Shown here: piece by piece, positions 26,612 to 59,532 of the stretch
Layout: every line of letters starts with the position of its first letter
Position numbering within the stretch: the stretch's first letter is position 1
Assembly (NCBI RefSeq): GCF_000607165.1
Contig: NZ_JFZG01000008.1
Location: 434,001 to 498,000 of the forward strand
Origin: Ralstonia pickettii
GTDB lineage: Bacteria; Pseudomonadota; Gammaproteobacteria; Burkholderiales; Burkholderiaceae
Direction of reading: 5' to 3'
DNA length: 64,000 nt
Position numbers and translations under genes: made by a program
The notes under the pieces: generated by a model
Database searches by the model: none
Told to the model about the DNA's origin: nothing
The model's input: the letters and a program-made list of their open reading frames with translations, nothing else

Positions 26612-27125
26612 GGCTTGGTGGTCCATTTGTGTTTCGTACCCTGCCGGGCACGACTCACTTTTCTTTGTCTTGCCAAAGAAAAGTAAGCAAAAGAAAGGCG
26701 CGCCCGAGATGGCGAAAGCCTTCTTGGATTTGTGTCGCGGGGAGGGGAAGGAGCCAAACTCGCTGCGCTCAGACAAGGCTCCTTCCTTAATCCTCCCCGC
26801 AACAAAAATCCAAGGCGCCATCAAGGGCTCAACGTCAAAAGAAAAAGGCCAACCCATCGTGCGGTTGGCCGTGTCGTTTGGGCTTGCACTGAGATGGTTT
26901 GGCCTTTGACTTTCCTGCCCTAGATGGCGCCTTGAATTTCTGTTGCAGGGAGGAAAAAGAGGGGAGGCCTGTCTGAGCGCAGCGAGTTTGCCTCCCCTCC
27001 CTCCCTGCGACATAAATTCAAGGAATGGGTCGCCATCTCGGGCGCGCATTTCTTTGCTTACTTTCTTTGGGCAAGACCAAAGAAAGTGAGTCAGCCCCGG
27101 CAGGGGATGAAACAAGGGATGCACC
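26612..27125. repeat. Composite palindromic repeat, copy A (full)
   Basis: Full copy of the dispersed family. It starts directly after the priA stop (GCTTGGTGGTCCAT) and ends in the inverted tip GGGATGAAACAAGGGATGC. The tips contain ACTTTTCTTTG / CAAAGAAAAGT and GGCGCGCC-type sequences. The left arm hairpin is 26723-26814 and the right arm hairpin 26931-27022; both have the conserved CTCGCTGCGCTCA loop (inverted in the right arm). The centre has GGCCAACC / GGTTGGCC (26847-26870). Open frames across it are repeat-derived, not genes. Confidence 0.9.
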
Positions 27126-27191
27126 AAAAACAAAAAACCAAGCCCATAAAGCGACGCTAAAGCCACGCCGAGAGCCCCCCACACCACGTGC

Positions 27192-27244
27192 GGTTGCACC
27201 CAAATCTACCCATTTCGAACCAAGGGGTTTCACTAGGTTGCACC
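27192..27244. promoter_or_regulatory. Candidate PutA operator pair
   Basis: The nonamer GGTTGCACC occurs twice (27192-27200 and 27236-27244), 44 bp apart and 79-131 bp before the putA ATG. GTTGCA is the core bound by the ribbon-helix-helix domain of E. coli PutA in put control regions (established knowledge). Autorepression in the absence of proline is inferred. Confidence 0.55.
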
Positions 27245-27322
27245 TTCAAGATCGCCAGGCGTATGATCCGCCCAATTTGCCGGCCACAAGCTAGGCAATG
27301 GCAGCTCTGGATAGGAACCCAC

Positions 27323-31315: not shown

Positions 31316-31445
31316 CGGGGAGCACGAGCAGGATTCGCAGCGCCATCCGCACGACGGGTGTGGGTGGAGCGCGAAGCGGGAGGAGGGCGACGGTGATCCC
31401 GTCGCGCTATTGATCCAAATTGCGTTTGAACTAGGAGACGCACAA

Positions 31446-32579: not shown

Positions 32580-32610
32580 TCCGACCGGCTCTCAGCCATT
32601 CGCAGTATGG

Positions 32611-32637
32611 AAACCGCCCTCCGGGGCGGTTTTTCTT
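32611..32637 (+). terminator. Intrinsic terminator after LivK-like gene
   Basis: A perfect stem AAACCGCCC / GGGCGGTTT (32611-32619 and 32624-32632) with a TCCG loop is followed by a T-rich tract TTTTTCTTT. Confidence 0.92.
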
Positions 32638-32777
32638 TGCCGGCGGCTCAAGGCTCCAAATGCAGAGTTGTCGCTTTCTGCGTCGAACGTCATCGATCTA
32701 TTATTAAATATCGTGTAACGAGGGTCTAACGCGTGTCAGTGCTTGGCTGACTTTCCCAAGCGGGTGCTTCGGGTACC

Positions 32778-34001: not shown

Positions 34002-34006
34002 GCCCC

Positions 34007-35143: not shown

Positions 35144-35158
35144 CGCCTCGAAGAACGG

Positions 35159-35674: not shown

Positions 35675-35688
35675 GATGCGTGATGGGC

Positions 35689-37743: not shown

Positions 37744-37853
37744 CCTGCGGTTCTCCAAAGAGGGTTCTTGTGGCGCGGATTATAGGAGTGGATGGGGGCG
37801 GGGGCTTGTGGGTTTTTTTTGGGGGGTGCTCTAGATTTCTTGCTCTTGTGGAG

Positions 37854-38364
37854 CATCCCTTGTTTCATCCCCTGCCGGGGCTGACTCACTTTCTTTGTCT
37901 TGCCAAAGAAAGTAAGCAAAGAAAGGCGCGCCCGATGCGGCGAAAGACTCCTTGAATTTATGTCGCAAGGAGGGGAAGGGAAAAACTCGCTGCGCTCAGA
38001 CAGTTTCCCTTCCTTTTTCCTCCTTGCAACAGAAATTCAAGGCGCCGCATAGGGCAACAAAGTCAAAGGACAAAAACCAAACACTCTGGGCGCTCGCCCA
38101 AACGACAAGGCCAACCGCGCGATGGGTTGGCCTTTTTCTTTTGACGTTGAGCCCTTGATGGCGCCTTGAATTTTTGTGAGCGGGCGGATAAAGGAAGGAG
38201 GCCTGTTTGAGCGAAGCGAGTTTGCCTCCTTCCCCGCACGGTCACACAAATTCAAGGGGATGTCGCCATCTCGGGCGCGCCTTTCTTTTGCTTACTTTTC
38301 TTTGGAAGACAAAGAAAAGTGAGTCGGTCCCGGCAGGGAACGAAAGGGGTGTGGACCACCAAGG
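37854..38364. repeat. Composite palindromic repeat, copy B (full)
   Basis: Full copy between the OPT gene start and the sdaA end. The left tip is CATCCCTTGTTTCATCCCC; the right tip ends at GTGGACCACCAAGG, the inverse of the copy A start. The left arm hairpin is 37950-38042 (inner stem GGAAGGGAAA / TTTCCCTTCC) and the right arm hairpin 38164-38257 (GGAAGGAGGC / GCCTCCTTCC). The centre contains GGCCAACC / GGTTGGCC (38109-38132) followed by TTTTTCTTTT. The region 38100-38170 is the inverted equivalent of the copy A centre. Confidence 0.9.
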
Positions 38365-38377
38365 CAAAAACCAAAAA

Positions 38378-39754: not shown

Positions 39755-39850
39755 GGGTGAGGCTCCGGGGGGGCGTTAAAGGGTGCAAGCGGCTTGTGGC
39801 CGCTTGCGCCAGGTTGTTGTGCGCGCGCTCTCAGTACAGCGCTTCGCCGT

Positions 39851-44517: not shown

Positions 44518-44564
44518 GAAAGGTTTCTCCGGAAGATTGGTATTGGGGGATGCGGATTCGGTGT

Positions 44565-45692: not shown

Positions 45693-45751
45693 GGAATCTC
45701 TCGGCTGATTACGCCGCCGTGGCCGGGCGCGGCGCATTGAACGGGGACCAG

Positions 45752-45827
45752 AAAAGCAAAAAGGCCACCCGCGCAGCCTAGTTCCTCATGGTGACGCCAT
45801 GAAGATCATCAAGCTGCGCAGATGGCC
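45752..45827 (-). terminator. Riboswitch-controlled terminator before gcvT
   Basis: On the minus strand, GGCCATCTGCGCAGC (45827-45813) pairs with GCTGCGCGGGTGGCC (45777-45763) using two G-U pairs, then TTTTTGCTTTT follows. The first arm directly follows, and can overlap, the closing stem of the second glycine aptamer, so glycine binding should prevent terminator formation (inference). Confidence 0.8.
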
Positions 45828-46056
45828 CCTCTGTCCTTGGTACCTGAGAGATTGCGAAGCAGCGCGTACTGCGGTACGCGCCGGTCCGTGAGCCCCTTCG
45901 GTGGGCGCCCGCTGTGGTTCGTGCGGCGCCAGCTCTCCAGAGTGCGGTCGGACGCATGTCCGCCGATCCGCCCGGTCCTGGATGCCTGAGAGTTTTCGGG
46001 TGCTACCCCTTCGGCGGCGCCTTGCCGTGTACGGCGGGCACGCTCTCCCGGATGGA
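45828..46056 (-). promoter_or_regulatory. Tandem glycine riboswitch
   Basis: Two glycine aptamers are in series on the minus strand. Aptamer 1 (about 46056-45970) opens GGGAGAGC, with CCGAAGGGGTAGCACCCG in the core and ACTCTCAGGCA near its end. Aptamer 2 (about 45947-45828) opens CTGGAGAGC, with ACCGAAGGGGCTCACGG and AATCTCTCAGGTACC, ending AGGACAGAGG. These are the conserved elements of the gcvT-class glycine riboswitch, and it precedes gcvT with a terminator as expression platform. Expected behaviour: glycine turns the gcv operon on. Confidence 0.93.
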
Positions 46057-46135
46057 TGAGCGGAATTTACGGAAGGGGGATGGGATTGTCAATTGGGGGG
46101 CGGCGGCTTTTTGGAGGAGGGCTGGCTTGATGCTT

Positions 46136-46428
46136 TTGGTCCATCCCTTGTTTCATCCCCTGCCGGGGCTGACTCACTTTTCTTTGTCTTGCCAAAGAAA
46201 AGTAAGCAAAAGAAAGGCGCGCCCGAGATGGCGACTTCCCCTTGAATTTCTGTCGCAGAGAGGGGAAGGGAAAAACTCGCTGCGCTCAGACAGTTTCCCT
46301 TCCTTTTTCCTCTCTGCAACAGAAATTCAAGGCGCCATCTAGGGCTGGTACGTCAAAGGCCAAAGACCAAAGACAACGGCCACAGCTTCGGGGCGCTGGC
46401 GAGATCGCCAAGCCCCAAGGGTGTGGCC
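46136..46428. repeat. Composite palindromic repeat, copy C (half)
   Basis: Only one arm is present. The tip TTGGTCCATCCCTTGTTTC and the arm hairpin 46240-46332 (outer stem CCTTGAATTTCTGTCGC with GCAACAGAAATTCAAGG; inner stem GGAAGGGAAA / TTTCCCTTCC) are complete. A centre follows with its own stem GGCCACA / TGTGGCC (46378-46428). The second arm is missing; the next gene's stop is 33 bp further on. Confidence 0.85.
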
Positions 46429-46460
46429 GGAGTGCGGGTGTTGGTTGGTCTTGCTGTGAC

Positions 46461-46787
46461 TTACTTGCCAATCTGGCGGCTGACCTGGTTTTCCTGCTGG
46501 TTCAGCGTGCGCTGCTCCTGCTTGGTGATGGCACCGCCATTCTGAGCCGCCATGTCGCGCTCTTCCTGGCGAATCTGATGGTCTTCCCGGTGCAGCTGGC
46601 GCGCTTGGCCCTTGGTGATCTCGCCTTCCTTCACTTCGTTGTGGATGCGCTTGTTCTGGTTGGCGAGGCGGTGGTTGACCTCGGCGCGGCGCGGGTGGTC
46701 TTTTTGCCACTGCGTCTGGGCGAAGGCGCCGGTGGTGGCGGACAGGGCGACGGCGGTAACGGCCAGGGCTTTGACGATGCGGTTCAT
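46461..46787 (-). CDS. Small secreted Gln/Lys-rich protein, 108 aa
   Basis: I do not recognise a characterised family. A clear signal peptide (MNRIVKALAVTAVALSATT, then GAFA|QT) is followed by a charged, helical, Gln/Arg/Glu-rich mature part of about 85 residues (WQKDHPRRAEVNHRLANQNK ... ITKQEQRTLNQQENQVSRQI). It has no cysteines and probably forms helical hairpins or a coiled coil in the periplasm, somewhat like Spy/CpxP chaperones in composition but without their LTxxQ motifs. It stands alone. Confidence 0.75.
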   Translation of the reverse strand: MNRIVKALAVTAVALSATTGAFAQTQWQKDHPRRAEVNHRLANQNKRIHNEVKEGEITKGQARQLHREDHQIRQEERDMAAQNGGAITKQEQRTLNQQENQVSRQIGK

Positions 46788-46970
46788 GGTGGTTTCTCCG
46801 GTGGGCGGCCGACTGATTCAGCCGCTGTCCTGCCTATAACGAACCGCGTTGCCGACGCGCTTACGGTCTTCGTGTAACCACACGTAAGCCGTGTAACGCG
46901 GCGCAGAAGGCCGGGGGGCGCAAACGAATGTGGTGCCGGCGCTTACCTTCAGCCGCTCAACGTGGTTGAC

Positions 46971-48977
46971 TTACCAGCCGAAGCCAGCGCCGACCCCAAC
47001 GTTGTACTCACTGCCGCCTGCCGTGGAGCCGCCGATGGTGACCGTGGCGCGCGAGCCGATCTTGCGCTGGTAGCCGATCGCGAGTGCTGCCTGGCCGCGG
47101 TACACCCCGGTGCCGATGGCCATGCGGTTATCGGTTTGCAGGCCGGCAGCGCTTGCCATCATGGTCGACATGGCGGCACTCATTGCACCCACGCGATTGA
47201 CCTTGGTGTCGATCTGATTGACTTGGTTCTGCACGTTCCCCAGACCTTGTTGCACATCGGCCACCTTGTTGTCCACGCGATCGAGCTGTGCCTTGTTAAC
47301 GGCGTCCGTAGCTTGCGTGCCTTCTGCAACGTTGGTGATGGCGCGCTCGTTGCCAACGGAGCCGACCGACACGCTGTTGGCGCGATCGGCCACCGAGTGA
47401 GCACCCACTGCGACAGCATTGTCTGCCGACGCGACGGCATTGGCACCGGTCGCCGTGGAATTTGCACCGCTGGCAACGGCGTTGGCGCCCGATGCTGTGG
47501 AGTAGTTGCCGGTTGCTGCGGCTTCCTCCTTCGTTGCCGGGTCACCGCTGCCGCCGCTACCGACAAACCGAGGATTTTCCGCGCCGCCGCCATCGCTCGT
47601 GGCACCCTCCAGCTTGTTGACGCGGCCGTCGAGGTTCGCGAGCGCATCACCCACGTTGTTATGCACGGTCTTGTCCGTGAACGAATACATCGGGGGCGTC
47701 CACACACCGTTGTTGAACCCGGCACCGCCGCCCAAGGCGCTGCCAACACTGTTGAGCTGGCTGAAGTTCACAGCGTCGTTGTCAGCCACGCCATTTGCTA
47801 CGTTGCTCAGCTTCACCGCATCGCCACCCTTGTTCAGCGTCACGCTAGATTTGGTGGCATCGTCGTACACGACTACGTTTGCGATGCTGCCGTCGTCGCG
47901 GACCAGACCGGTGTTCTTGAGCTGGCGTACGTTCACGGCATCGGTGTCATCCGTACCTTCGGCCACGTTCTTGACCTGCACCGGCCCCGTGCCTGCGCCC
48001 TGGAGCGTCACGCTTGTGCCGCCTGCGTCGTATTGCACGGAATTGCTGGCCAAGCTGGCCGCGTTATCGGCCACGGACTTGACGTCATTGAGTTGGCCAC
48101 CGTTGACGGCATCCTTGCTATCGGCTTCCACCTTACCGTCGGCGACGTTACCCAGTTGCACCGCATCGCCACCCTTGTTCAGCGTCACGCTGGATTTGGT
48201 GGCATCGTCATAGATGACGGCGTTGCCGACGCTGCCGTCGTTGCCGATCAGGCCGGCGTTCTTGAGCTGCTGGACGTTCACGGCATCGGTGTCTGCCGTA
48301 CCAGCGGTGACGTTGGTCAGCTTGCGCGTGATGGCGTTGCCGTCCACGTCCTTGCCGGCGAAGTTCACAGCATCACCATCGGTGTCTTTCGCTACGCTGA
48401 TCTCAGCGCCAGCCCCGGCCTGCTGGACCATGCCGGCCTTGCCGTTGGTGAGGTTGGTGATGTTGTTGGCGTTGGTGACGATACTGGCAGCATTACCCTT
48501 GATACGATCGTCGAGATTGCCGAGCGCGCCGCCCACGGTTGAGTACGTCGTGCTTCCCGTGCTGTCCGCACCCAGTGTGTAGGTCGGCGCAACAACGGCA
48601 CCCGTCACGCTATTGAGGCGAGCATCGCCACCGAGTGCGGTAAGCGCACCGTTGAGCTGGTTGACGGTCACGGCATCGGTTGTACCGATACCATTTTGAA
48701 CGCCCGTCAGGCGACGGTTTTGTCCCGCTAAATTAGAGAAATTGACCGAACCTCCGGTCACACCGCTGCCAATATTGATCGGCCCTCCAGCGTCCGGCTG
48801 CTCGATCAGCGTTTGCGCCATCGCCCCAGGCGCAGAAAGCAATACCGTGCCCGCGATCAGCGCAGAAACCGCAGCCCGCACAACAGGACGTCCCTTGCCA
48901 CGCCCACGCGCGATTTCCGAAACTGCCATCCATACGCCAATCGCTTTGTTGAAAACGACGCGATATGCCTTGTTCAT
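46971..48977 (-). CDS. Trimeric autotransporter adhesin, YadA-like
   Basis: This 668-residue outer-membrane adhesin (type Vc secretion) starts with the extended signal peptide region MNKAYRVVFNKAIGVWMAVS. Repeated Trp-ring/neck-type modules follow (DAVNVQQLKNAGLI, SVTLNKGGDAVQLGNVADG, SVTLNKGGDAVKLSNVANG), then YadA-head-like SGANAVASGANSTATGANA repeats. A neck (TQATDAVNKAQLDRVD), a coiled coil and the C-terminal anchor barrel ending GGSEYNVGVGAGFGW complete it. It is short for the class. The head-like repeats lie close to the anchor, after the neck modules, an unusual order. Confidence 0.93.
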   Translation of the reverse strand: MNKAYRVVFNKAIGVWMAVSEIARGRGKGRPVVRAAVSALIAGTVLLSAPGAMAQTLIEQPDAGGPINIGSGVTGGSVNFSNLAGQNRRLTGVQNGIGTTDAVTVNQLNGALTALGGDARLNSVTGAVVAPTYTLGADSTGSTTYSTVGGALGNLDDRIKGNAASIVTNANNITNLTNGKAGMVQQAGAGAEISVAKDTDGDAVNFAGKDVDGNAITRKLTNVTAGTADTDAVNVQQLKNAGLIGNDGSVGNAVIYDDATKSSVTLNKGGDAVQLGNVADGKVEADSKDAVNGGQLNDVKSVADNAASLASNSVQYDAGGTSVTLQGAGTGPVQVKNVAEGTDDTDAVNVRQLKNTGLVRDDGSIANVVVYDDATKSSVTLNKGGDAVKLSNVANGVADNDAVNFSQLNSVGSALGGGAGFNNGVWTPPMYSFTDKTVHNNVGDALANLDGRVNKLEGATSDGGGAENPRFVGSGGSGDPATKEEAAATGNYSTASGANAVASGANSTATGANAVASADNAVAVGAHSVADRANSVSVGSVGNERAITNVAEGTQATDAVNKAQLDRVDNKVADVQQGLGNVQNQVNQIDTKVNRVGAMSAAMSTMMASAAGLQTDNRMAIGTGVYRGQAALAIGYQRKIGSRATVTIGGSTAGGSEYNVGVGAGFGW

Positions 48978-49491
48978 GTCAATTACCCTGCGAAATAAGA
49001 AACGGAATCCGGTACTGATCCGTGCCGCGGATCAGCCGGCGCAGAGTCTGTAGAAATCAAGGGGCAAGTTCTGTTGATTTTCGTGCGCATCGCAATAAGC
49101 GATGGAATCCGCAAGATCAGAAAATTCCTACATCAAGGCGTACGGCCGATGCTAGACCGCTGGTTTTGATGGCATAAAGATGCCCATTGCCACCACAAGA
49201 AATTACAGATGTCAGCCAATTCTTAGTTTTGAATTTGACAACCATCAATCAGTGGATTCCAAAATCTGGTAGCGACCTCGCTGTGCCGCGCAAAAGGAAA
49301 TGCGTCAAAAACGTGGTTTAAAAAACGACTCCATCGGAAACTGCGAGCCTAAAAATCGACAAAAAAATAAAAAACGGAGGCGAGGCCCCTGGGCACCCGC
49401 CGCCGTGCCGAGGGCGGGAACCATCGGATCGCACGTGCTACCATCCCCTTCCGCTGTACGTTCCCGCCTGCTTTTTCTTCTGCCTCTTCCC
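48978..49491. other. 514-bp AT-richer divergent region, adhesin / rep
   Basis: No gene was recognised. Base composition is visibly richer in A and T than the rest of the window, especially 49040-49375 (for example AAAAAAATAAAAAACGG near 49360). It separates the adhesin and rep starts and should hold both promoters; I could not assign them. An AT-rich region before an adhesin suits silencing by an H-NS-like protein (inference). Confidence 0.55.
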
Positions 49492-51612
49492 ATGTCTTCC
49501 GGTCTCGCCCACGGGCTCAATGCTGCCCAATCCGAAGGTGTGCATTACCTCGACGGCCCATGCCTGGTGCTGGCCGGGGCGGGCTCAGGCAAGACGCGCG
49601 TGATTACGCAGAAGATTGCGCACCTGATCCTCGACAAGGGCTTCGAACCGAGGCACATCGCTGCCGTTACGTTCACCAACAAGGCCGCCAAGGAAATGCA
49701 GGAGCGCGTGGCCAAGCTGATGGACGGCAAAACACGCGAAGACGGCAAGCGCATTCCCATCAAGCAGTTGACGGTGTGTACGTTCCACTCGCTCGGTGTG
49801 CAGATCCTGCGGGCCGAGGCCGAGCACGTGGGCCTCAAGCCGCGCTTCTCGATCATGGATTCGGACGACTGCTTCGGGATGATCCAGGAGCAACTGGCGA
49901 CCACCGACAAGCAACTGATCCGCCGTGTGCAGAGCACGATCTCGCTGTGGAAGAACGGTCTCGTCGACCCGGACACCGCGATTGCCGAGGCGCTCGCCAA
50001 CAACAACGTCGATGACCATCAGGCGGCGCTCGTCTACCGCAATTACGTTGCGACGCTGCACGCGTATCAGGCCGTGGATTTTGACGATCTGATTCGTATT
50101 CCTGCCGAGCTGTTCGCGCGCAATGAAGAGGTGCGGCTGAAGTGGCAGAACCGCCTGCGCTACTTCCTTGTCGACGAATACCAGGACACCAACGCCTGCC
50201 AGTACCAGTTGCTGAAGCTCCTGGCGGGTGGCTCACACCTGCGTGCGCCGGCCTTCACGGCGGTGGGCGACGACGATCAGGCCATCTACGGCTGGCGCGG
50301 CGCCACGCTCGACAACCTCAAGCTGTTGCAGACGGATTTCCCGAACCTGAAGGTCATCAAGCTGGAGCAGAACTACCGCTCCACCGTGCGCATCCTGAAT
50401 GCGGCCAACGCCGTGATCGCGCAGAACCCGAAGCTGTTCGAGAAGACGCTGTGGAGCGAGCACGGCATGGGCGACGCGATCAACGTGACCAGCGCCAATG
50501 ACGAAGAGCACGAAGCCGAGAGCGTGGTCTTCAAGCTCTCTGCCCACAAGTTCGAGCGCCGCGCGCAGTTTCGGGATTACGCGATCCTGTATCGCGGCAA
50601 CTTCCAGGCACGCCTGTTTGAGCAGATCCTGCGCCGCGAGCGCATTCCGTATGTGCTCTCGGGCGGCCAGAGCTTTTTCGACAAGGCCGAGATCAAGGAC
50701 CTGTGCGCCTACCTGCGGCTGATTGCCAATGCGGATGACGATCCTGCGTTCATCCGCGCCATCACCACGCCCAAGCGCGGCGTGGGCAACGCGACGCTGG
50801 AAGTGCTGGGTTCGTTTGCGGGACAGGCGAAGGTGTCGCTGTTCGAAGCGGCGATGATGGGCGGCATCGAAGCCCAACTGGCGCCGCGCCAGCTCGAGCC
50901 GCTGCGGGTGTTTTGCGAGTTCATCGTGCGGCTGTCGGACCGGGCCGCCAAGGAACCAGCCGCCACGCTGCTCGACGAGATGATGGAAGGCATCCATTAC
51001 GAGGCCTACCTGTATGACACCCACGACGAGCGCCAGGCCCAGAACAAGTGGACCAACGTGCTGGAGTTTCTCGACTGGCTCAAGCGCAAGGGCACCAAGC
51101 CCGAGAAAGACGACGACGAAGAGGCCACCGGTTTCGACAATGCCGATGGCCTGATGGACGCCGGCAAAAACCTGCTGGAGCTCACGCAGACCATCGCGCT
51201 GATCAGCATGCTCGAAGGCAAGGAAGAGGACCCGGATGCTGTGCGCCTGTCAACGCTGCATGCGAGCAAGGGGCTCGAATATCCGCACGTGTTCCTGGTG
51301 GGCGTGGAAGAGGGCATCCTGCCGCACTGCCGCGAAGACGATGATCTGACCGACGAGAAGATCGAAGAAGAGCGGCGGTTGATGTATGTGGGCATCACGC
51401 GGGCGCAGCGCAGTCTGCATATCAGCTGGTGCAAGAAGCGCAAGCGTGCGCGGGAGACGGTGGTGTGTGAGCCGTCGCGCTATATCGCGGAGATGAAGCT
51501 TGGCGAAGACGCGGGGCCGACACCGGAGGACACCATGCCGGCGATGTCGCCGAAGGATCGGCTCGGGGCGTTGAAGGGGTTGCTGGCGGCGAAGAAACCT
51601 GTGGCTTCGTGA
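49492..51612 (+). CDS. rep: ATP-dependent DNA helicase Rep (UvrD family)
   Basis: This 706-residue superfamily 1A 3'-5' helicase has motif I AGAGSGKTRVITQKIAHL, motif Ia AVTFTNKAAKEM, motif II VDEYQDTNACQY, motif III VGDDDQAIYGWRGA, motif IV LEQNYRST and C-terminal motifs LSTLHASKGLEYPHVFLVG and RRLMYVGITRAQ. Length and the short C-terminus favour Rep over UvrD. The ATG at 49492 (MSSGLAHGLNAAQ) is chosen because the upstream frame is Lys/Arg-rich and unlike helicases. It aids forks through protein blocks. Confidence 0.92.
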   Translation: MSSGLAHGLNAAQSEGVHYLDGPCLVLAGAGSGKTRVITQKIAHLILDKGFEPRHIAAVTFTNKAAKEMQERVAKLMDGKTREDGKRIPIKQLTVCTFHSLGVQILRAEAEHVGLKPRFSIMDSDDCFGMIQEQLATTDKQLIRRVQSTISLWKNGLVDPDTAIAEALANNNVDDHQAALVYRNYVATLHAYQAVDFDDLIRIPAELFARNEEVRLKWQNRLRYFLVDEYQDTNACQYQLLKLLAGGSHLRAPAFTAVGDDDQAIYGWRGATLDNLKLLQTDFPNLKVIKLEQNYRSTVRILNAANAVIAQNPKLFEKTLWSEHGMGDAINVTSANDEEHEAESVVFKLSAHKFERRAQFRDYAILYRGNFQARLFEQILRRERIPYVLSGGQSFFDKAEIKDLCAYLRLIANADDDPAFIRAITTPKRGVGNATLEVLGSFAGQAKVSLFEAAMMGGIEAQLAPRQLEPLRVFCEFIVRLSDRAAKEPAATLLDEMMEGIHYEAYLYDTHDERQAQNKWTNVLEFLDWLKRKGTKPEKDDDEEATGFDNADGLMDAGKNLLELTQTIALISMLEGKEEDPDAVRLSTLHASKGLEYPHVFLVGVEEGILPHCREDDDLTDEKIEEERRLMYVGITRAQRSLHISWCKKRKRARETVVCEPSRYIAEMKLGEDAGPTPEDTMPAMSPKDRLGALKGLLAAKKPVAS

Positions 51613-51633
51613 TTGGTTTTTTTGTTCTTTGTT

Positions 51634-51671
51634 TGTGGTGCATCCCTTGCTTCATCCCCTGCCGGGGCTGA
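51634..51671. repeat. Repeat family, terminal stub D
   Basis: About 38 bp match only the outer tip of the family (TGTGGTGCATCCCTTGCTTC, then ATCCCCTGCCGGGGCTGA). The similarity stops exactly there and unrelated sequence follows. It lies in the 85-bp convergent gap between rep and the ABC binding protein gene. Confidence 0.8.
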
Positions 51672-51697
51672 AACAGAACCAGACCACCAAGTCCAAA

Positions 51698-52786
51698 TCA
51701 ATTCCCCGCCCCCTGAATGTAATTCAGATCAACAAACTCACTCCCCCGATTCCCACGCGTGAAATCAAGCGTGAACCCGCCCACATCAACGCGGGTCTGC
51801 AATGCACGCCGCAGTTCTGCACCGGCAACCTTGCCACCGCTGGCATTCATCGACTGAATCAAATACACCGCAGCGATATACCCCGACAGCGTTGCAGCAG
51901 AAGGCGGCTCATCCAGAAACTGCTTCATCCGCGCCATATGCTCGCGCGCGACCTTGGTGGCGCCGCTGGCCGGGTTCGGCACCGTCTGCGCGAGCAGCAT
52001 GCCGCCGCTGTACCCCGCGCCCAGGATCTCCCGCGCCACTTGTGGGTTGACCGACGATAGCCCGACGAGAAAGCCGTACCACCCCTGCTGCGCCAGCGCA
52101 CGCCCAACGGTGGCGTAGGTCAGCGTATCGCCAGCGATGATCACTGCCGTGGGTTTTGTCAGTGCAATACGGGCAGCAAGTTCCGCCGGGTCTCCGGTGA
52201 GCGTGTAAAGGTCCAGCGTCTCCCCAGTGCTCCCCTTGGCTAACGTGCCTCGCAGACGCGCACCAAGCTGCGGATCAAAGCCTGCTGCAGTGACGAGCGC
52301 AATCCGCCGCATCCCGAACTGCCGCAGCCGGTTATGCGCAGCGACGATCTCGTGGTCGTAATCGGGGCGGATGAACAGGACGTTGTCAGACGCGGATGTC
52401 GCGCCCGAGAGCGGGGCGAGCAGCGGCACGTTGCGCCGTGCGATCTCGGCAGACGCGACCAGCGCGGGCAGCAGGCGTTCGCTTACGCCAAAGAGCACTT
52501 CTACATGGTCGCGATCGATCATGTCGACGGCCTGCGGTACGGCTTCACCAAGCGCAGCTTCGCGCCGGACGAGGCTGATGCGCCGGCCCTTGATGCCGCC
52601 GTTCTGGTTGGCCGCATCGAATGCAACCTTGGCGCCGGCCATGAAGTCGCGCGCGTAGTCGGCTTGGTCTGCACCGCGTTCGACCAGTTGGCCGACGACA
52701 AAAGACGTACCCTGCGCATGCACCGCCAGCGTCACGGCCGCGCAGGCCAGCGCACATGCGCCGCGGCGTGCCAGTCTCTGCCACAT
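51698..52786 (-). CDS. ABC transporter substrate-binding protein, LivK-type fold
   Basis: This 362-residue periplasmic binding protein (Peripla_BP_6 type) has a signal peptide (RRGACALACAAVTLAVHA|QG). It continues FVVGQLVERGADQADYARDF, AFDAANQNGGIKGRRISLV and DNVLFIRPDYDHEIVAAHNR, as in amino-acid and amide receptors. The start at 52786 is fixed by the signal peptide; the frame runs further upstream. No transporter genes are adjacent. It is divergent from hemN. Confidence 0.88.
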   Translation of the reverse strand: MWQRLARRGACALACAAVTLAVHAQGTSFVVGQLVERGADQADYARDFMAGAKVAFDAANQNGGIKGRRISLVRREAALGEAVPQAVDMIDRDHVEVLFGVSERLLPALVASAEIARRNVPLLAPLSGATSASDNVLFIRPDYDHEIVAAHNRLRQFGMRRIALVTAAGFDPQLGARLRGTLAKGSTGETLDLYTLTGDPAELAARIALTKPTAVIIAGDTLTYATVGRALAQQGWYGFLVGLSSVNPQVAREILGAGYSGGMLLAQTVPNPASGATKVAREHMARMKQFLDEPPSAATLSGYIAAVYLIQSMNASGGKVAGAELRRALQTRVDVGGFTLDFTRGNRGSEFVDLNYIQGAGN

Positions 52787-52970
52787 GGTGTTTCCCCCAA
52801 AAAATCGAGTCGACGACCTGCGCTGTTGTGTTGTTGTGACGGCCAGCGTATGGCTGGCGACGCGGCCATGGTGCCGATTGTCGATGTTAGGGGGTAGAAC
52901 GTGACAGATCGGTGAAGTTGGGTCCCTCCCGGCGGAGGGGGCGATGCGTTTGAACAGGCGGTGACTGACG

Positions 52971-52984
52971 TTGACACACATCAA
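52971..52984 (+). promoter_or_regulatory. FNR/ANR-type box before hemN
   Basis: TTGACACACATCAA matches the FNR/ANR consensus TTGAT-N4-ATCAA in nine of ten positions. Its centre is 52977.5. A class II promoter would start near 53019, and TAGGAT at 53007-53012 fits as the -10 element. This predicts induction of hemN at low oxygen. Confidence 0.7.
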
Positions 52985-53040
52985 CGCGACACCCGCACCG
53001 CAGTTTTAGGATGAACCATCGCCCCCACAACAATCGCCCC

Positions 53041-54525
53041 ATGTTTCCGTTCGCCAAGCCGGCCGACGATCCGTCCGCCGCAAATGACACCGCCTTCCGC
53101 TGGTCGGCGCCGCAGGTGCGCGAGCTCGCGCAGCGCTTTGATACGCACGGCCCGCGCTACACGTCGTACCCGACGGCAGACCGCTTTCACAACAAATTCG
53201 GTAACGCCGATTACCTCGACGCCTTGCACCGCCGCGCGGCGATTGCGCCCGCGCTGCATGCGCCGCTGTCGCTGTACATGCACCTGCCGTTCTGCGCGAA
53301 CCTTTGCTATTACTGTGGCTGCAACAAGGTCATCACCAAGGATCGCTCGCGCAGCGCACGCTACGTTGAAACCCTCGCCCGCGAGATGGCGATGGTGGCC
53401 AACCAGATTGGCCCCCTGCGCCGCGTAACGCAGTTGCATTGGGGTGGCGGCACGCCCACTTTCCTTGCGCACGACGAAATGCGCGCCGTGATGGCCGCCT
53501 CGCGTGAGCATTTCGATCTGGCCAACGATGGCGAGATCTCCGTCGAACTCGACCCACGCCACGCCGACGACGCCACGCTTGAAGTCCTGGCCGAAATCGG
53601 GTTCAACCGCGCAAGCCTCGGCATTCAAGACTTTGACCCCGATGTCCAGCGCGCGGTCCACCGCATCCAGAGCGTGGAAGAGACACGCCGCGTGGTCGAC
53701 ACGGCGCGCCGGCTGGGCTTCGAGTCGATCAGCTTCGACCTGATCTACGGCTTGCCGTATCAGCGCACGGAAACCTTCAACGCCACGCTGGATCGTGTGC
53801 TGGAGATGGCGCCTGATCGGCTGTCCGTCTACAGCTATGCGCACCTGCCGCATCTGTTCAAGGCGCAGCGCCGCATCGACATGCTCACGCTGCCGACCGC
53901 AGACGAAAAACTCGATTTGCTGGCGATGACGGTGGAGCGCCTCGTTGCCGAGGGCTATGTCTACATTGGCATGGACCACTTCGCGCGGCCTGACGATGCA
54001 CTCGCCATCGCGCAGCGCGAAGGGCGGCTGCAGCGCAATTTCCAGGGCTATTCGACGCACGCCGATTGCGACATGCTGGCCTTTGGCGTGTCCGCCATCA
54101 GCCGCGTGGGTGATGTGTATGCGCAGAACGAGAAGAATCTCGACGCCTATTACGCACGTATCGACGCCGGCGAACTTGCCGTGCTGCGCGGCATGTCGCT
54201 CACGCCGGACGACCACGTGCGCCGCGCGCTGATTGGCGAGTTGATGTGCGGGTTCGAATTGAACATGCGCGCATTCGGTGCGCGCCACGGGCTGGACTTC
54301 AAGCGCAGCTTTGCGGACGAGCTGCAGGCGCTGGCACCCCTGGAGGAAGCCGGGCTGGTGAAGGTAGGGGACGAGCGTATCGTCATCACGCCGCAAGGGC
54401 GGCTGCTCGTACGCCGCATCGCCATGGTGTTCGATTCGCACCTGCGTGAGGCAGGCACGGAGCGCGCGGTGGAAGCCGAGGGCAAGCCCGTCACCTTCGT
54501 CCCGCGCTACTCCAAAGTGGTCTGA
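53041..54525 (+). CDS. hemN: Oxygen-independent coproporphyrinogen III dehydrogenase
   Basis: This radical-SAM enzyme of about 494 residues converts coproporphyrinogen III to protoporphyrinogen IX without oxygen. The cluster motif C85-x3-C89-x2-C92 lies in [16 protein letters not shown], with the extra Cys94 typical of true Hem[15 protein letters not shown] is the conserved N-terminal segment, and the C-terminal HemN domain includes [14 protein letters not shown]. Two starts are possible, 53011 and 53041. I prefer 53041 because the predicted -10 element overlaps the 53011 ATG and the inferred transcript begins downstream of it. Confidence 0.94.
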
Positions 54526-54549
54526 TCCGCCTACTGGCCCGACGTCACG

Positions 54550-56028
54550 TCAGACCGTTACCGGTTCGGGCTGCAGTGCAGTGGTTTGCGTCTGCGCACT
54601 GACCAGCGTCTGCGGCCAGATTTCCGCCAGGCGCAGCAGGTTGGTCGAACCGGCCTGGCCGAACGGCATGCCCGCCGTGATGGCGATCTGGTCGCCCGAC
54701 ACGGCAAAGCCTTCACGCGCAGCGGCACGGCACGCTGCATCCACCATTTCGTCGACGTTGCTCACATCGGGGCTGACCGTGCTGTGCACGCCCCACGTGA
54801 TCGCCAGACGGCGCGCCGTATCCAGGCGCGGCGTGATGCTCACGATGGGCGCGAGCGGCCGCTCGCGCGCGGCGCGCAGGCTGGTCTGACCGCTGGACGT
54901 GTAGGTGACGGTGGCCACTGCGCCCAGGATGTGCGTGACGTCGCGCAGGGCCGCGCAGATGGCGTCCTGGCGCGTGGGCAGCGGCGGTTGATGCTGCGCG
55001 TCGATCAGGTTGCGGTACAGCGGGTCGCGCTCGGTCTCGGCAATGATGCGGTTCATGATGCTGACCGCAGCCACCGGATGCTTGCCGCTGGCCGACTCGG
55101 CCGACAGCATCACGGCATCGGTGCCGTCATACACGGCGCTGGCCACGTCAGACGCTTCGGCACGCGTCGGCACCGGCGCCTCAATCATCGATTCCAGCAT
55201 CTGCGTGGCCACGACCACCGGCTTGCCGTGGTGGCGCGCCATGCGCAGGATGCGCTTCTGCACGCCAGGCACGCGCTCGGGCGGCAGTTCCACGCCCAGG
55301 TCGCCGCGCGCCACCATCAGGGCATCGGACGCCTGCACGATGTCTTCCAGATGCAGCAGCGCTGCGGGCTTCTCGATCTTGGAGAGCAGGCCGGCGCGGT
55401 CGCCAATGATCTCGCGCGCGGCGATCACGTCTTCGGCGCGCTGCACGAATGACAGTGCGATCCAATCGACGCCCAGCGACAGGGCGAAGTCCAGGTCGCG
55501 CAGGTCTTTCTCTGTGAGCGCCGGAATGGGGATCACCGCATCCGGCACGTTCACGCCCTTGCGGTCCGACAGCGGGCCGCCATCGACCACGCGCGTGACG
55601 ATGACCGTCGGATCGGCGGCTTCCACCTCCAGGCGGATCTTGCCGTCGTCGAGCAACAGCGATTGTCCTGGCGCGGCAGCCGCATACAGCTCAGGGTGCG
55701 GCAGGTGCACGCGGGTGACATCACCCGGCGTCGGGTCGCGGTCGAGCACAAAGCGATCGCCGTTCTTGAGCACGACACGGCCATCGGCGAACGTGCCGAT
55801 GCGCAGCTTCGGGCCTTGCATGTCAGCGAGGATGCCAATCGGGCGGCCGGTCTCGGCCTCCACCGCGCGCACGGTGTCGTAGCGCTTGCGGTGGTCTTCG
55901 TGCGAGCCGTGGCTGAAGTTCAAGCGAAAGACGTCTGCGCCGGCGTCGAAGAGGGCGCGGATGGTGTCTTTGTCGCTGCTGGCGGGGCCGAGGGTGGCTA
56001 GGATTTTGGTGTTGCGGAAGCGGCGCAT
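54550..56028 (-). CDS. pyk: Pyruvate kinase
   Basis: This 492-residue glycolytic enzyme converts PEP and ADP to pyruvate and ATP. It starts MRRFRNTKILATLGPASSDK, with catalytic segments LNFSHGSHEDHR, the signature LLSKIEKPAALLHLEDI, VARGDLGVELPPERV and MLSAESASGKHPV. The frame extends upstream into repeat copy E, but the conserved N-terminus fixes the start at 56028, so the repeat ends about 23 bp before the start. It lies last in a same-strand series after the D-glycerate pathway genes whose product, 2-phosphoglycerate, leads to PEP. Confidence 0.96.
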   Translation of the reverse strand: MRRFRNTKILATLGPASSDKDTIRALFDAGADVFRLNFSHGSHEDHRKRYDTVRAVEAETGRPIGILADMQGPKLRIGTFADGRVVLKNGDRFVLDRDPTPGDVTRVHLPHPELYAAAAPGQSLLLDDGKIRLEVEAADPTVIVTRVVDGGPLSDRKGVNVPDAVIPIPALTEKDLRDLDFALSLGVDWIALSFVQRAEDVIAAREIIGDRAGLLSKIEKPAALLHLEDIVQASDALMVARGDLGVELPPERVPGVQKRILRMARHHGKPVVVATQMLESMIEAPVPTRAEASDVASAVYDGTDAVMLSAESASGKHPVAAVSIMNRIIAETERDPLYRNLIDAQHQPPLPTRQDAICAALRDVTHILGAVATVTYTSSGQTSLRAARERPLAPIVSITPRLDTARRLAITWGVHSTVSPDVSNVDEMVDAACRAAAREGFAVSGDQIAITAGMPFGQAGSTNLLRLAEIWPQTLVSAQTQTTALQPEPVTV

Positions 56029-56050
56029 GTTGGTGTTTCCGGTGGGGTTG

Positions 56051-56602
56051 TTGTTTGAACCTTGGTGGTTCATCTCCCTTTCACCCCCTGCCGGGGGCGA
56101 CTCACTTTCTTTGTCTTGCCAAAGAAAAGTAAGCAAAGAAAGGCGCGCCCGAGATGGCGACCCCTTCCTTGAATTTGTGTAACCGGGCGGGGAAGGAGGC
56201 AAACTCGCTGCGCTCAAACAGCCTCCTTCCTTTTTTCGCCCGCTTACACAAATTCAAGGCGCCATCTAGGGCAGGGTGCGGCCACACAATCTGTGCGCAG
56301 TCCTAGTTGGCTCTTGTTTGATGCTGCGTTGCTCGCTTTGCTTCGCGTTGTGCTGCTGGTTCCTACTGCACTCGTGCTCGATGGTGTGGCCGTTGGAGCC
56401 CTAGATGGCGCCTTGAATTTCTGTTGCAGAGAGGAAAAAGAGGGCAGGCCTGTCTGAGCGAAGCGAGTTTTCCCCTTCCCCTCTCTGCGACATAAATTCA
56501 AGGGGAAGTCGCCATCTCGGGCGCGCCTTTCTTTGCTTACTTTCTTTGGCAAGACAAAGAAAGTGAGTCAGCCCCGGCAGGGGATGAAACAAGGGATGAA
56601 CC
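56051..56602. repeat. Composite palindromic repeat, copy E (full)
   Basis: Full copy between pyk and the glycerate kinase gene. The left tip begins TTGTTTGAACCTTGGTGG. The left hairpin 56167-56259 is nearly perfect: CCTTGAATTTGTGTAA / TTACACAAATTCAAGG and GGAAGGAGGC / GCCTCCTTCC around the conserved loop. The right hairpin 56411-56503 pairs only in its outer part; its inner arms do not match. The centre (56270-56400) closes with CGGCCACAC / GTGTGGCCG. It is nearly the same as copy F and in the same orientation. Confidence 0.9.
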
Positions 56603-56636
56603 AAAAGCATCAATCCATCCCTCGTCCAGTCCAACG

Positions 56637-57956
56637 TCAAGCAGTAATCAAAATCGCCCGAAAATCATTCACATTAGTCCGCGTCGGCCCAGTCACAATC
56701 AAATCGCCCAACGCATTAAAGAACCCATACCCGTCGTTGTTGTCGAGCCATTGCTTCGGCTTCAACCCAAGCGTTTCAGCACGCGCCAGGCTATCCGGTG
56801 TCAGGATCGCTCCAGCGTTGTCTTCCGAGCCATCGATGCCATCGGTATCGCAGGCAATTGCATGCACACCCGGAAGGCCATCCAACGCCACGCCCAGTGC
56901 CAGGAGAAACTCGGCATTACGGCCACCGCGGCCGTTACCGCGCACCGTCACCGTGGTTTCACCGCCCGACAGAATCACGCACGGCTTGGTGAACGGCTGA
57001 TTGCGCGCCACGATCTGCCGCACGATGCCGGCGTGCACTTCGGCCACATCGCGCGCTTCACCTTCAATGCTGTCCGACAGGATGTGCGCCTCATAACCGA
57101 GTGCGCGTGCCTGTGCGGCCGCCGCTTCCAGCGCGTGCTGAGCTGTCGCGATGACGTGGCTGCGATGGCCTTCGAAACGTGCATCGCCGGGTTTGGGCGT
57201 TTCGCCTGCGCCGGTTTCCAGATGACGGCGCACTGCATCGGGTACGTCGATGCCGTATTTGTTGATCACGGCCAGGGCATCCGCGCAGGTGGTGGCGTCG
57301 GGGAGCGTCGGGCCGCTGGCGATGAGCGTTGGGTCGTCGCCAGGAATATCGGAGATCAGCAGGGTCTCGACGCGTGCCGGTGCGCACGCCAGCGCCAGGC
57401 GCCCGCCCTTGATCGACGACAGGTGCTTGCGCACGCAGTTCATCTCGCCGATGCTCGCGCCGCTTTTGAGCAGCGCGCGGTTGACGGACTGCTTGTCGGC
57501 CAGCGTCAGGCCCTCGGCTGGTGCAGCCAGCAGGGCCGAGCCACCGCCCGAGATCAGGCACAGGACAAGGTCGTCCTCTGTCAAACCTTCGAGCAGGCCG
57601 ACCATGCGTTGCGCAGCGCGCTGGCCGGCCGCATCGGGCACGGGGTGCGAGGCTTCAACCACTTCAATCCGGCCTTGTGTGCCGGGCGCGCGGCCGTGCT
57701 CGTAACGCGTGACGACCAGGCCAGAGAGTTCGCCCTTCCAGTGCTGCTCCACTGCCTCGGCCATCGCGGCTGCACCTTTGCCCGCGCCGATGACGATGGT
57801 GCGGCCACGCGGCGGTTCGGGCAGGAATGCCGGCAAGCATTGCGCAGCGCTGACCGCAGCCACCGCGGTATCAAACAGGCCGTGCAGCAACGCGCGCGGC
57901 GACGGATTGGGCAAGGCAGCGCGCAGGGCGGCCTGGGCAGACTGGTCGTGGTGCAT
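56637..57956 (-). CDS. ttuD: Glycerate 2-kinase, MOFRL family (GckA/TtuD-like)
   Basis: This 439-residue kinase phosphorylates D-glycerate to 2-phosphoglycerate. The N-terminal domain (TIVIGAGKGAAAMAEAVEQ, then LCLISGGGSALLAAPAEGLT and EMNCVRKHLSSIKGGRLA) and the C-terminal MOFRL domain (LSGGETTVTVRGNGRGGRNA, ACDTDGIDGSEDNAGA) are intact. ATG at 57956 (MHHDQSAQAALR). It lies downstream of garR with a terminator-like hairpin in the 65-bp gap. The neighbouring gcl, hyi and garR genes make the glyoxylate/D-glycerate role very likely. Confidence 0.93.
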   Translation of the reverse strand: MHHDQSAQAALRAALPNPSPRALLHGLFDTAVAAVSAAQCLPAFLPEPPRGRTIVIGAGKGAAAMAEAVEQHWKGELSGLVVTRYEHGRAPGTQGRIEVVEASHPVPDAAGQRAAQRMVGLLEGLTEDDLVLCLISGGGSALLAAPAEGLTLADKQSVNRALLKSGASIGEMNCVRKHLSSIKGGRLALACAPARVETLLISDIPGDDPTLIASGPTLPDATTCADALAVINKYGIDVPDAVRRHLETGAGETPKPGDARFEGHRSHVIATAQHALEAAAAQARALGYEAHILSDSIEGEARDVAEVHAGIVRQIVARNQPFTKPCVILSGGETTVTVRGNGRGGRNAEFLLALGVALDGLPGVHAIACDTDGIDGSEDNAGAILTPDSLARAETLGLKPKQWLDNNDGYGFFNALGDLIVTGPTRTNVNDFRAILITA

Positions 57957-57977
57957 GGCAGAAAGCGGGGAGACAGC

Positions 57978-58011
57978 AAAAAAAACTGCCGCCGCCCGAA
58001 GGCTGCGACAG
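57978..58011 (-). terminator. Terminator-like hairpin between garR and glycerate kinase
   Basis: On the minus strand, CTGTCGCAGCC and GGCGGCGGCAG pair (one mismatch, one G-U) around a TTCG loop and are followed by eight T (57985-57978). It should reduce readthrough from garR into the kinase gene. Confidence 0.8.
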
Positions 58012-58021
58012 TGCACACAAC

Positions 58022-58936
58022 TTACGCAATATCGTGGTTCGACATGATCTCGATCGCGCGGCACAGCGCCGAGTGGTCTTGCTTGCCCATGCCGTTGGCA
58101 GCGCAGGTGTTGAACAGCTCCTGCGCGGTGGCCGTGTTCGGCAGGGCCACGCCCAGGGTCTTGGCGCCCTGCAGGGCCAGGTTCAAGTCCTTCTGGTGCA
58201 GCTCGATGCGGAAGCCCGGGTCGAACGTACGCTTGACCATGCGCTCGCCGTGCACTTCGAGAATGCGCGACGCAGCGAAACCGCCCATCAGTGCCTGACG
58301 GACCTTCGCCGGGTCTGCACCCGCCTTCGATGCGAACAGCAGCGCTTCCGACACGGCCTGGATGTTCAGCGCGACGATGATCTGGTTGGCCACCTTGGTG
58401 GTCTGGCCGTCGCCGTTGCCGCCGACCAGCGTGATGTTCTTGCCCATCAGGTTAAACAGCGGAGCAACGCGATCGAACGCAGCCTGCTCACCGCCCACCA
58501 TGATCGTCAGCGATGCAGCCTTCGCGCCCACTTCGCCACCCGACACCGGAGCGTCCAGGTATTGCGCGCCGGTCTTGTTGATGCGCGATGCGAAGTCCTT
58601 CGTCGCGATCGGCGAGATCGAGCTCATGTCGACCACGATCTTGCCGGCAGCAACGTCCTTGCCTGCATCCTTCAGCGCCTTGGCCACGCCCTTCTCGCTA
58701 AACAGCACGGCTTCAACGTGCGGCGTGTCCGGCACCATGATGAAGATGATGTCGGCGCGCTTGGCGACTTCCTCGGCGCTCGTGCAGACCGTCACGCCGG
58801 CTTCCACCAGCGCGGCCGGGGCCGGGTTGACGTCGTGCACGAACAACGTGTGGCCGGCGGCGCGCAGGTGTCCTGCCATGGGGGCGCCCATGATGCCGAG
58901 GCCGATGAAACCGAGGTTGAGATTGGTGGTTGCCAT
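58022..58936 (-). CDS. garR: Tartronate semialdehyde reductase (2-hydroxy-3-oxopropionate reductase)
   Basis: This 304-residue beta-hydroxyacid dehydrogenase has a Rossmann start LGFIGLGIMGAPMAGHL and the substrate motif DAPVSGGEVGAKAASL. The catalytic lysine is K181 in GQTTKVANQ. It reduces tartronate semialdehyde to D-glycerate with NAD(P)H. The context (gcl, hyi, glycerate kinase) supports this over 3-hydroxyisobutyrate dehydrogenase. GGAGAT precedes the ATG. Repeat copy F separates it from hyi. Confidence 0.93.
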   Translation of the reverse strand: MATTNLNLGFIGLGIMGAPMAGHLRAAGHTLFVHDVNPAPAALVEAGVTVCTSAEEVAKRADIIFIMVPDTPHVEAVLFSEKGVAKALKDAGKDVAAGKIVVDMSSISPIATKDFASRINKTGAQYLDAPVSGGEVGAKAASLTIMVGGEQAAFDRVAPLFNLMGKNITLVGGNGDGQTTKVANQIIVALNIQAVSEALLFASKAGADPAKVRQALMGGFAASRILEVHGERMVKRTFDPGFRIELHQKDLNLALQGAKTLGVALPNTATAQELFNTCAANGMGKQDHSALCRAIEIMSNHDIA

Positions 58937-58976
58937 GGTGAGGGATCTCCTTGGTTTGAATGTGTTGGTGGTTTGC

Positions 58977-59532
58977 TTGTTTGAACCTTGGTGGTTCATC
59001 TCCCTTTCACCCCCTGCCGGGGGCGACTCACTTTCTTTGTCCTGCCAAAGAAAGTAAGCAAAGAAAGGCGCGCCCGAGATGGCGACCCCTTCCTTGAATT
59101 TGTGTAACCGGGCGGGGAAGGAGGCAAACTCGCTGCGCTCAAACAGCCTCCTTCCTTTTTCCGCCCGCTTACACAAATTCAAGGCGCCATCTAGGGCAGG
59201 GGTACGGCCACACAATCTGTGTGCTGACCTAGAGGCTCTTGCTTGTTGCTGTTGCTGCTCGCTTCGCTTCGCGTTGTGCTGCGGGTTCCTACTGCACCTG
59301 TGGTCGATGGTTTGGCCGTTGGAGCCCTAGATGGCGCCTTGAATTTCTGTTGCAGAGAGGAAAAAGAGGGCAGGCCTGTTTGAGCGAAGCGAGTTGCCTG
59401 CACTCCCTCTCTGCGACATAAATTCAAGGGGAAGTCGCCATCTCGGGCGCGCCTTTCTTTTGCTTACTTTTCTTTGGCAAGACAAAGAAAAGTGAGTCAG
59501 CCCCGGCAGGGGATGAAACAAGGGATGCACCA
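58977..59532. repeat. Composite palindromic repeat, copy F (full)
   Basis: Full copy between garR and hyi, co-oriented with copy E and nearly the same over its whole length including the centre (CGGCCACACAATCTGTG, CTACTGCAC). The left hairpin is 59092-59184. The right hairpin is 59337-59429, with inner arms GAGGGCAGGC and GCCTGCACTC that pair except for one base. The right tip ends GGGATGCACCAC. Confidence 0.9.

Follow-up and report, generated by a model that had tools for sequence, protein, structure and literature searches.

A 64,000-nucleotide stretch of Ralstonia pickettii DNA (contig NZ_JFZG01000008.1, here called the window) carries a family of long palindromic repeats between its genes, which raises the question whether these repeats are mobile elements or functional parts of the genome. 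A preliminary description had listed four full copies, a half copy and a stub, and profile matches recovered all six: four two-armed copies, or doubles (A, B, E and F), one single arm (C) and one remnant (D). Element A spans 26618..27127 (arms 26618-26828 and 26917-27127 around a centre of 88 bp), B 37848..38359 (arms 37848-38055 and 38151-38359), E 56065..56604 (arms 56065-56272 and 56398-56604) and F 58991..59533 (arms 58991-59197 and 59324-59533). Element C lies at 46137..46345 on the minus strand, and D is a tip remnant at 51635..51675 in which the palindrome has collapsed to approximately the hairpin H3 described below; the doubles and the remnant are listed without a strand. These profile ends lie within about 15 bp of the limits first proposed, except that the end of C had been placed at 46428, some 80 bp out into its inner flank. 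All six copies were found between called genes, as had been proposed, E overlapping the crude call of its left gene by 9 nt. The gene between E and F has a best-segment amino-acid identity of 93% to Ralstonia soli and 96% to Ralstonia sp. SET104. The arms of a double are inverted, as expected, whereas its two tips, first described as complements of each other, usually differ in type, one being CATCCCTTGTTTCATCCCC-like and the other usually CCTTTCGTTCCC-, CCTTTCGTACCC- or CCTTTCACCCCC-like. The prediction of many copies per genome was confirmed. At least 37 elements are present in the own genome (19 scored as double, 16 single and 2 partial), a lower bound because the best 40 of 49 candidates were scored; two of the 19 doubles are collapsed mini-palindromes. 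Each of the 16 Ralstonia genomes searched gave matches, in 53-108 rows per genome that count both strands and both arms and are thus not copy numbers.

An arm is about 210 bp long and consists, from its inner end to its tip, of a long hairpin (H1), GGCGCGCC, a T-rich tract, a second hairpin (H2, CTTACTTTTCTTTG paired with CAAAGAAAAGTGAG) and a third (H3, TCA.CCCC ggca GGGG.TGA). In element C, where the minus strand is the outward sense (tip at 46137, inner end at 46345), H1 occupies 46221..46345 and is followed outward by GCGCC and the T-rich tract, H2 (CTTACTTTTCTTTG..CAAAGAAAAGTGAG) lies at 46172..46207 and H3 (TCA-g-CCCC ggca GGGG-a-TGA, with covarying sub-types) at 46154..46171, all on the minus strand. 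The predicted RNA folds of C with short flanks (246 nt; -123.8 kcal/mol, z -9.6) and of F (556 nt; -351.2 kcal/mol, z -20.5) exclude chance. The suggestion of a structured element held when 61 pairs were followed through 47 own-genome arms: standard pairs occupied 98.4% of 2858 cells, and pairing fell to 41-53% when the partners were slid by 1-3 columns as a control. Double changes were seen at 25 pairs (16.6 in shuffles) and in 262 cells (82 in shuffles). The structure is also biased toward one strand, the outward RNA being more stable than the inward one in 217 of 217 arms (means -113.5 vs -99.1 kcal/mol). Wobbles present in at least 4 of the 47 arms, counted on the union of pairs predicted on either strand (a count on the outward-strand structure alone is biased toward G.U), comprised 8 G.U and no A.C columns, and rare wobbles in the same set were balanced, at 27 G.U vs 33 A.C cells. 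In a stricter set of 45 pairs predicted on both strands there were 2 G.U and no A.C persistent columns, and 14 and 17 rare cells.

Doubles were defined as tips-outward pairs of arms, and the opposite, tips-inward arrangement within 650 bp did not occur among 150 elements. Their centres range from 88 to 574 bp (n=89). None of these 89 doubles is a transposase-bearing relative, which agrees with the earlier remark that the copies hold no transposase; the three centres exceeding 220 bp are filled by minisatellites or low-complexity frames. Centres of the A/B type contain GGCCAACC..GGTTGGCC followed by T-rich sequence, and that of B, where TTTTTCTTTT follows, has by eye the look of an intrinsic terminator. 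Most of the 16 own-genome single arms have an inner flank that ends in GGTTTGGCCGTACCCT or a variant of it, and at the single sites L107 and L114 a canonical terminator was recognized by eye already before the arm.

The elements occupy a restricted gene context, as judged from the calls of a home-made codon-usage gene finder rather than from annotation. By majority call, 21 of 49 sites are convergent, 28 tandem and none divergent; at two sites one genome was called divergent, one of these being a tie. Intergenic regions of at least 60 nt in the examined loci, a background that includes the element-bearing ones, comprise 67 divergent, 44 convergent and 199 tandem regions. Gene 3' ends lie close by: of 54 distances to them in the own genome, 41 are below 70 nt. 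Position alone is ambiguous, as a repeat tolerated only where it is harmless would avoid promoters too. Single arms carry a direction as well: at 10 of 11 sites between tandem genes the upstream gene reads the arm from inner end to tip, or at 9 of 10, outward with transcription, when one mixed site (single in one genome, double in the other) is left out.

We tentatively favour, at a rough probability of 0.42, the reading that the elements are domesticated, vertically inherited, direction-sensitive 3'-end modules whose outgoing RNA is kept C/A-rich, perhaps for Rho. Each arm would act one way, from inner end to tip, so that the outward RNA would contain in order an inner hairpin (a terminator-like one in some elements), H1, a U-rich tract, H2, H3 and then a C/A-rich stretch. 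This outgoing stretch, kept rich in C/A and poor in G/U, would remain unstructured, and the element would end or insulate transcription, most likely by way of Rho, which would act on this C-rich, G-poor tail. Doubles would act both ways between neighbours and singles would serve the upstream gene. Against a role as a 3'-end module, a terminator scan of 45700-60000 stayed at or below shuffle level, with 12 sites vs 14.2 in shuffles and none within C, D, E or F.

The sequence beyond the tips is strand-biased as well. On the left of F (58825..58990), the plus strand, which runs toward the tip, is G/T-rich, and this extends into the neighbouring gene (GC skew +0.31 and AT skew -0.23 at 58825-58974). 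The right flank (59534..59724) is the mirror image, the strand toward the tip, here the minus strand, again being G/T-rich: plus-strand GC skew is -0.18 at 59500-59649 and -0.23 at 59575-59724, and AT skew +0.37 and +0.08. Across the family, intergenic G+T on the strand toward the tip at 0-15, 15-30 and 30-60 nt was 0.84, 0.79 and 0.69 on 3' sides and 0.83, 0.79 and 0.72 on 5' sides (controls 0.52 and 0.55).

The same holds for four-fold sites of the neighbouring genes, binned at 0-60, 60-100, 100-150, 150-250, 250-400, 400-700 and 700-1200 bp from the tip. Their G+T on the incoming strand was 0.92, 0.90, 0.80, 0.69, 0.61, 0.54 and 0.50 for doubles and 0.80, 0.89, 0.79, 0.69, 0.60, 0.56 and 0.53 on the tip side of singles. 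Four-fold G+T on tip sides is thus about 90% within 100 bp and fades over about 400 bp to a background of about 51%. Singles show the opposite skew on their inner side (0.37-0.42 between 60 and 700 bp), which makes the outward strand C-rich to either side of the arm, as selection on the RNA predicts. The skew is independent of gene orientation. In genome G000, all 31 tip-side flanks with at least 12 four-fold sites at 30-120 nt reached 0.69 or more. With one genome per site and at least 10 four-fold sites at 30-150 nt, 51 of 52 flanks exceeded 0.52, namely 36 of the 37 that face a 3' end and all 15 that face a 5' end. Within 150 bp the skew in translated downstream codons was about as strong as at antisense positions, which is not easily predicted by Rho acting on untranslated RNA.

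The composition follows the element. Genes more than 1.5 kb from any element in the examined loci were flat (0.46-0.56), as were the element-free Cupriavidus orthologues of E and F (0.45-0.52, 28 flanks), whereas occupied Ralstonia E and F sites (14 flanks) gave 0.87, 0.83, 0.67 and 0.53 in the first four bins. Partial elements showed a weaker skew (0.78/0.71/0.67). In Herbaspirillum, Noviherbaspirillum and other Burkholderiales, tip sides gave 0.87, 0.78 and 0.61 (16 flanks; 23, 98 and 163 sites) and distant positions 0.56-0.58; inner-side values, which mix singles and doubles there, were left out. A literature search, mostly of listings, returned no report of such an element-coupled composition field.

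REPs have been suggested to act as exonuclease barriers or RNase III sites. By analogy, the arms could be 3'-UTR structures with a post-transcriptional role, in which they block 3' exonucleases or are processed by RNase III. Very stable hairpins, a 3' position and the outward sense bias agree with such a role, and yet it does not predict a skew that runs past the tips into the neighbours' codons, so we regard it as very improbable.

A further reading takes the family as a passive, ancient MITE-like repeat that persists where it is harmless, its palindromy being kept by template switching and its skew produced by strand-specific mutation at the tips. The repeat nature itself, the tip-outward arms and the avoidance of divergent promoters fit this reading, and REPs are reported in similar locations, between convergent or tandem genes and near stop codons, in the accessible part of PMC3733652. 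However, four-fold identity between orthologues was 77.8-81.9% in all distance bins (81.1% at 700-1200 bp) and is not clearly lowered near the elements, so the tip region is not clearly hypermutable. Polarised changes were compared between near (0-150 bp) and far (600-2000 bp) positions. Changes from G/T to A/C, the disfavoured direction, were reduced near the tips both in G007/G008 (3/404 vs 53/1904, Fisher p 0.012) and in G005/G015 (3/182 vs 117/1368, Fisher p 0.0003). Changes from A/C to G/T numbered only 1/42 near and 59/1924 far in G007/G008, and 6/20 and 97/1216 in G005/G015. Two further sets pointed in the same direction but were small (2/90 vs 73/808; 0/40 vs 30/330), and the sets that use outgroup G011 have species in common and thus lack independence. 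Fewer changes in the disfavoured direction argue for selection or conversion bias, and would not result from an added mutation process. Hypermutation around the tips was accordingly rejected as a candidate, and the comparison suggests that the flank skew reflects a fixation bias. We estimate that a scaled coefficient of about 2.4 would match the G:C ratio of about 11 near the tips. The passive reading also fails to account for persistent wobbles that are only G.U in the outward sense, or for elements that are more conserved than four-fold sites: orthologue identity was 90.3% for elements vs 80.2% for four-fold sites of the flanking genes and was higher for the element in 147 of 155 pairs, doubles being scored in the better-fitting orientation. 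We consider it unlikely.

The proposal of a non-autonomous mobile element found no support as regards present-day behaviour. The 150 elements of ten genome sets, with one genome per species, formed 49 orthologous sites, 39 of which are shared by at least two genomes; the groups cover examined loci only, and absence from a group is no evidence. When empty and occupied sites were compared, 12 shorter Ralstonia alleles were inspected at base level, and 10 kept tip remnants and are therefore deletions: A and F in G011, B in G007, C in G015, D in the window, and the L090 site in G015, G007, G002, G006 and G013. Of the 7 genomes grouped at site C, 6 have a single arm and G015 has a collapsed element. 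At site D, full doubles occur in G015, G007, G008, G005, G011 and L011, and the MAG L009 has no element and no remnant, with 642 bp of other sequence instead. At L090 the palindrome is full in the own genome, G008 and G011, and an arm match was not found at E<=10 in G009; L009 at site D and G009 at L090 could be true absences. The full, H2-level and H3-level palindromes at L090 in different species are a nested collapse.

Recent insertion was also considered and set aside. Three G000 copies (L090, L105 and L094) have no orthologues among the elements examined. L090 has full copies in two other species, remnants in five and neither in G009; at L105 a distance of 187 bp to about 1.5 kb separates the two flank matches in six genomes, and in G010 they lie on separate contigs. 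By eye the junctions show no obvious target duplication, and Ralstonia offers no clean empty site for comparison. In Cupriavidus, on the other hand, seven loci gave no arm match at the orthologues of E and F, with base-level inspection of the E sequence in three loci and of the F sequence in one, and such clear element-free orthologues leave room for an ancient insertion phase. The elements thus look old and not recently mobile, having probably spread by ancient mobilisation.

The content of the sites is less stable than their position. Element A keeps its orientation in G015 and G008; whole or segmental inversions were found for B in G015, D in G007 and G008, and L109 and L115 in G000, and in L193 of G007 the centre alone is inverted. 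Single arms were 89.1% identical between orthologues and 86.1% between paralogues of the same genome, the nearest neighbour being the own orthologue in 13 of 32 cases. Because a divergence of about 10% alone makes long blocks differ, exact block alleles are a weak test, and multi-base classes were compared instead. Agreement between orthologous and paralogous single arms was 16/38 and 65/196 for stem class, 18/38 and 60/196 for bulge class and 26/38 and 98/196 for tip type; it was higher for the basal block (34/38 and 144/196). The sites have thus largely stayed in place while their content moves, presumably through ectopic conversion, and the reshuffled blocks suggest that copies still exchange content by recombination. 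Part of this signal could also arise from saturation of constrained sites.

In a DNA-level alternative, the palindrome would occasionally be broken at replication and RecBCD/RecA repair would use the G/T-rich 3'-ended flanks, the breaks driving exchange and inversion between arms and copies. RecA and Chi both favour G/T-rich strands. A skew that is centred on the element whatever the gene orientation, the inversions and segmental swaps at several sites, and single arms whose stem and bulge classes agree little more between orthologues than between paralogues would all be expected, and this reading explains orientation independence and exchange better than selection on the RNA does. Within the best 40 of 57 candidates scored in G015, 17 of the 25 listed chromosomal sites are no more than 350 kb from the start of the record, which opens with a reading frame that we take, by recognition, to be DnaA-like; the concentration toward dnaA, seen in this one genome, fits as well. 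In 104 flanks GNTGGTGG occurs 23 times on the incoming and 3 times on the outgoing strand. As a Chi-like motif it was rejected: no 6-8-mer stands far above the expectation from shorter words (largest z 3.4, for another word), and the asymmetry of GNTGGTGG is therefore taken to follow from composition. The lack of such a word counts against the repair reading, as do the opposite skew on the inner side of single arms and the outward-RNA preference and orientation of singles, which it leaves unexplained. In addition, replication-coupled cleavage is described, in the accessible part of PMC3315005, only with artificial palindromes that exceed natural lengths. We judge this alternative unlikely.

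Selection at the RNA level accounts at once for the tip-side skew, its reversal on the inner side of singles, the direction in which these singles lie and the outward bias of the structure. The 3'-end module is on these grounds ranked above repair, although not decisively. It counts against the module that the outgoing RNA is U-poor, which is not what Rho classically prefers.

None of the known systems compared matches the family fully. Like REP/BIME repeats, it consists of dispersed intergenic palindromes, single or in inverted pairs often of two types, which lie between convergent or tandem genes beside stop codons, with 0 of 49 sites divergent by majority call. REP units, however, measure 20-40 bp, as against an arm of about 210 bp with three hairpins, and no adjoining RAYT was found. 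All 16 genomes encode Y1_Tnp proteins (17 matches), and none of the 3.1-3.4 kb loci around these matches held an arm match at E<=1. The own-genome protein scored 55.3 bits, below the 80-bit REP-transposase cut-off, and mobilisation by a RAYT was rejected on both counts. As to the GTAG/CGTC tag of REPs, one arm alignment shows GTGAG/GTAAG at the foot of H2/H3. The skew around E. coli REPs (21 clusters in 350 kb) is far weaker than around the Ralstonia elements: 0.73/0.66/0.66 at 0-60/60-100/100-150 nt in 3'-facing genes vs 0.58/0.56/0.60 in controls, with no signal in the few data on the 5' side.

The Pseudomonas fluorescens repeats R0, R1, R2 and R6 (Silby et al. 2009) share inverted repeats around a variable core and a tail-to-tail bias; the accessible part of that paper gives them as 80-177 bp long with inverted repeats of 24-43 bp and as likely MITEs (PMC2718517), and it is this published description, not sequence, that sets them apart. 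MITEs share the terminal inverted arms, the absence of coding capacity and the many copies, and differ in that no related transposase was found in the centres of the present family's doubles and most of its sites are common across the genus. Intrinsic and Rho-dependent terminators share hairpins near stop codons, B-type centres including a canonical-looking terminator, and a C-rich, G-poor outgoing RNA. In the arms, however, GCGCC stands between H1 and the U run, the scan calls no terminator in the arms of C, E and F, and the skew spans hundreds of bp. As the preliminary description had supposed, no named family matched, either in Rfam at gathering scores or in the literature searched. A known RNA family was excluded, the window yielding at the gathering score only two glycine riboswitch matches, and sub-threshold matches on F were microRNA families far below the cut-off, as with any long hairpin. 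Ralstonia is not mentioned in the main text of PMC2267715, PMC3733652 or PMC2817692, and searches with words of the element returned only papers that, judging by title, do not concern bacterial repeats.

Outside Ralstonia, an arm query matched at least 28 of 150 genomes of the order sample and an 81-bp query at least 44 of 369 of the class sample, the own genome included in both; the matches fall mostly on H2 and its surroundings. The three-hairpin plan is retained in Herbaspirillum L027 and L034. A phage search with the element gave no match, and plasmids gave partial matches in 14 records, none covering 80%.

The repeat and its surroundings may thus form one extended cis-acting module that recurs across Burkholderiales, a view to which we give just short of an even chance. 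A palindrome would be linked to a strand-polarised field of base composition that covers some 300-400 bp beyond its tip and is upheld by selection, even where it falls on synonymous codons of unrelated neighbours and whatever their direction; the module would mark transcript ends or repair sites in a manner not described before. Bacterial intergenic repeats are usually viewed as parasites or small RNA structures. Here, the base composition of coding sequence hundreds of bases from a repeat can be predicted from that repeat, irrespective of gene direction, and the repeat keeps its address through the reshuffling of its content. If the field is selective, the function of a large palindrome would become directly testable by recoding silent sites, and codon usage near such elements would need reinterpretation. 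The E. coli REP signal, weaker and on the 3' side only, suggests that the effect may be more general.

The dnaA end of the chromosome record of Ralstonia genome G015 (C2, near position 0) carries a cluster of elements, and among the listed sites, which come from searches that scored 40 of 57 candidates, 17 of 25 lie within 350 kb of that end. Three doubles have centres enlarged to 394-574 bp by a minisatellite-like expansion, at positions 11456-12446, 2234-3043 and 2395-3235 of loci L011, L165 and L173, respectively.

A Y1 tyrosine-transposase-like protein is present in all 16 Ralstonia genomes (loci L139-L154), with a single match per genome except in G002, which has two. No repeat arm adjoins the Y1 gene at any of these loci. 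Its neighbour in each of the three loci read is a gene that we take, by recognition, to be gltB-like.

Within the window, a tandem pair of glycine riboswitch aptamers (Rfam RF00504) is located on the minus strand at 45821-46060, with the gene called at 44565-45692 downstream of both aptamers and the single-arm element C (46137-46345, minus strand) placed just past the pair. A 173-nt direct repeat, the copies of which are 84% identical and 345 bp apart from start to start, lies inside a called reading frame (47797-47969 and 48142-48314).

Far outside Burkholderiales, the tip module, the outer end of the arm, was matched over 44 bp with 91% identity in Pasteurella multocida plasmid records (H12-H14). 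A weak G+T excess is also seen in Escherichia coli K-12 (loci L249-L255): where the end of a gene adjoins a cluster of REPs (repetitive extragenic palindromes), its four-fold sites in the nearest 150 bp or so are richer in G+T than those near gene ends elsewhere.
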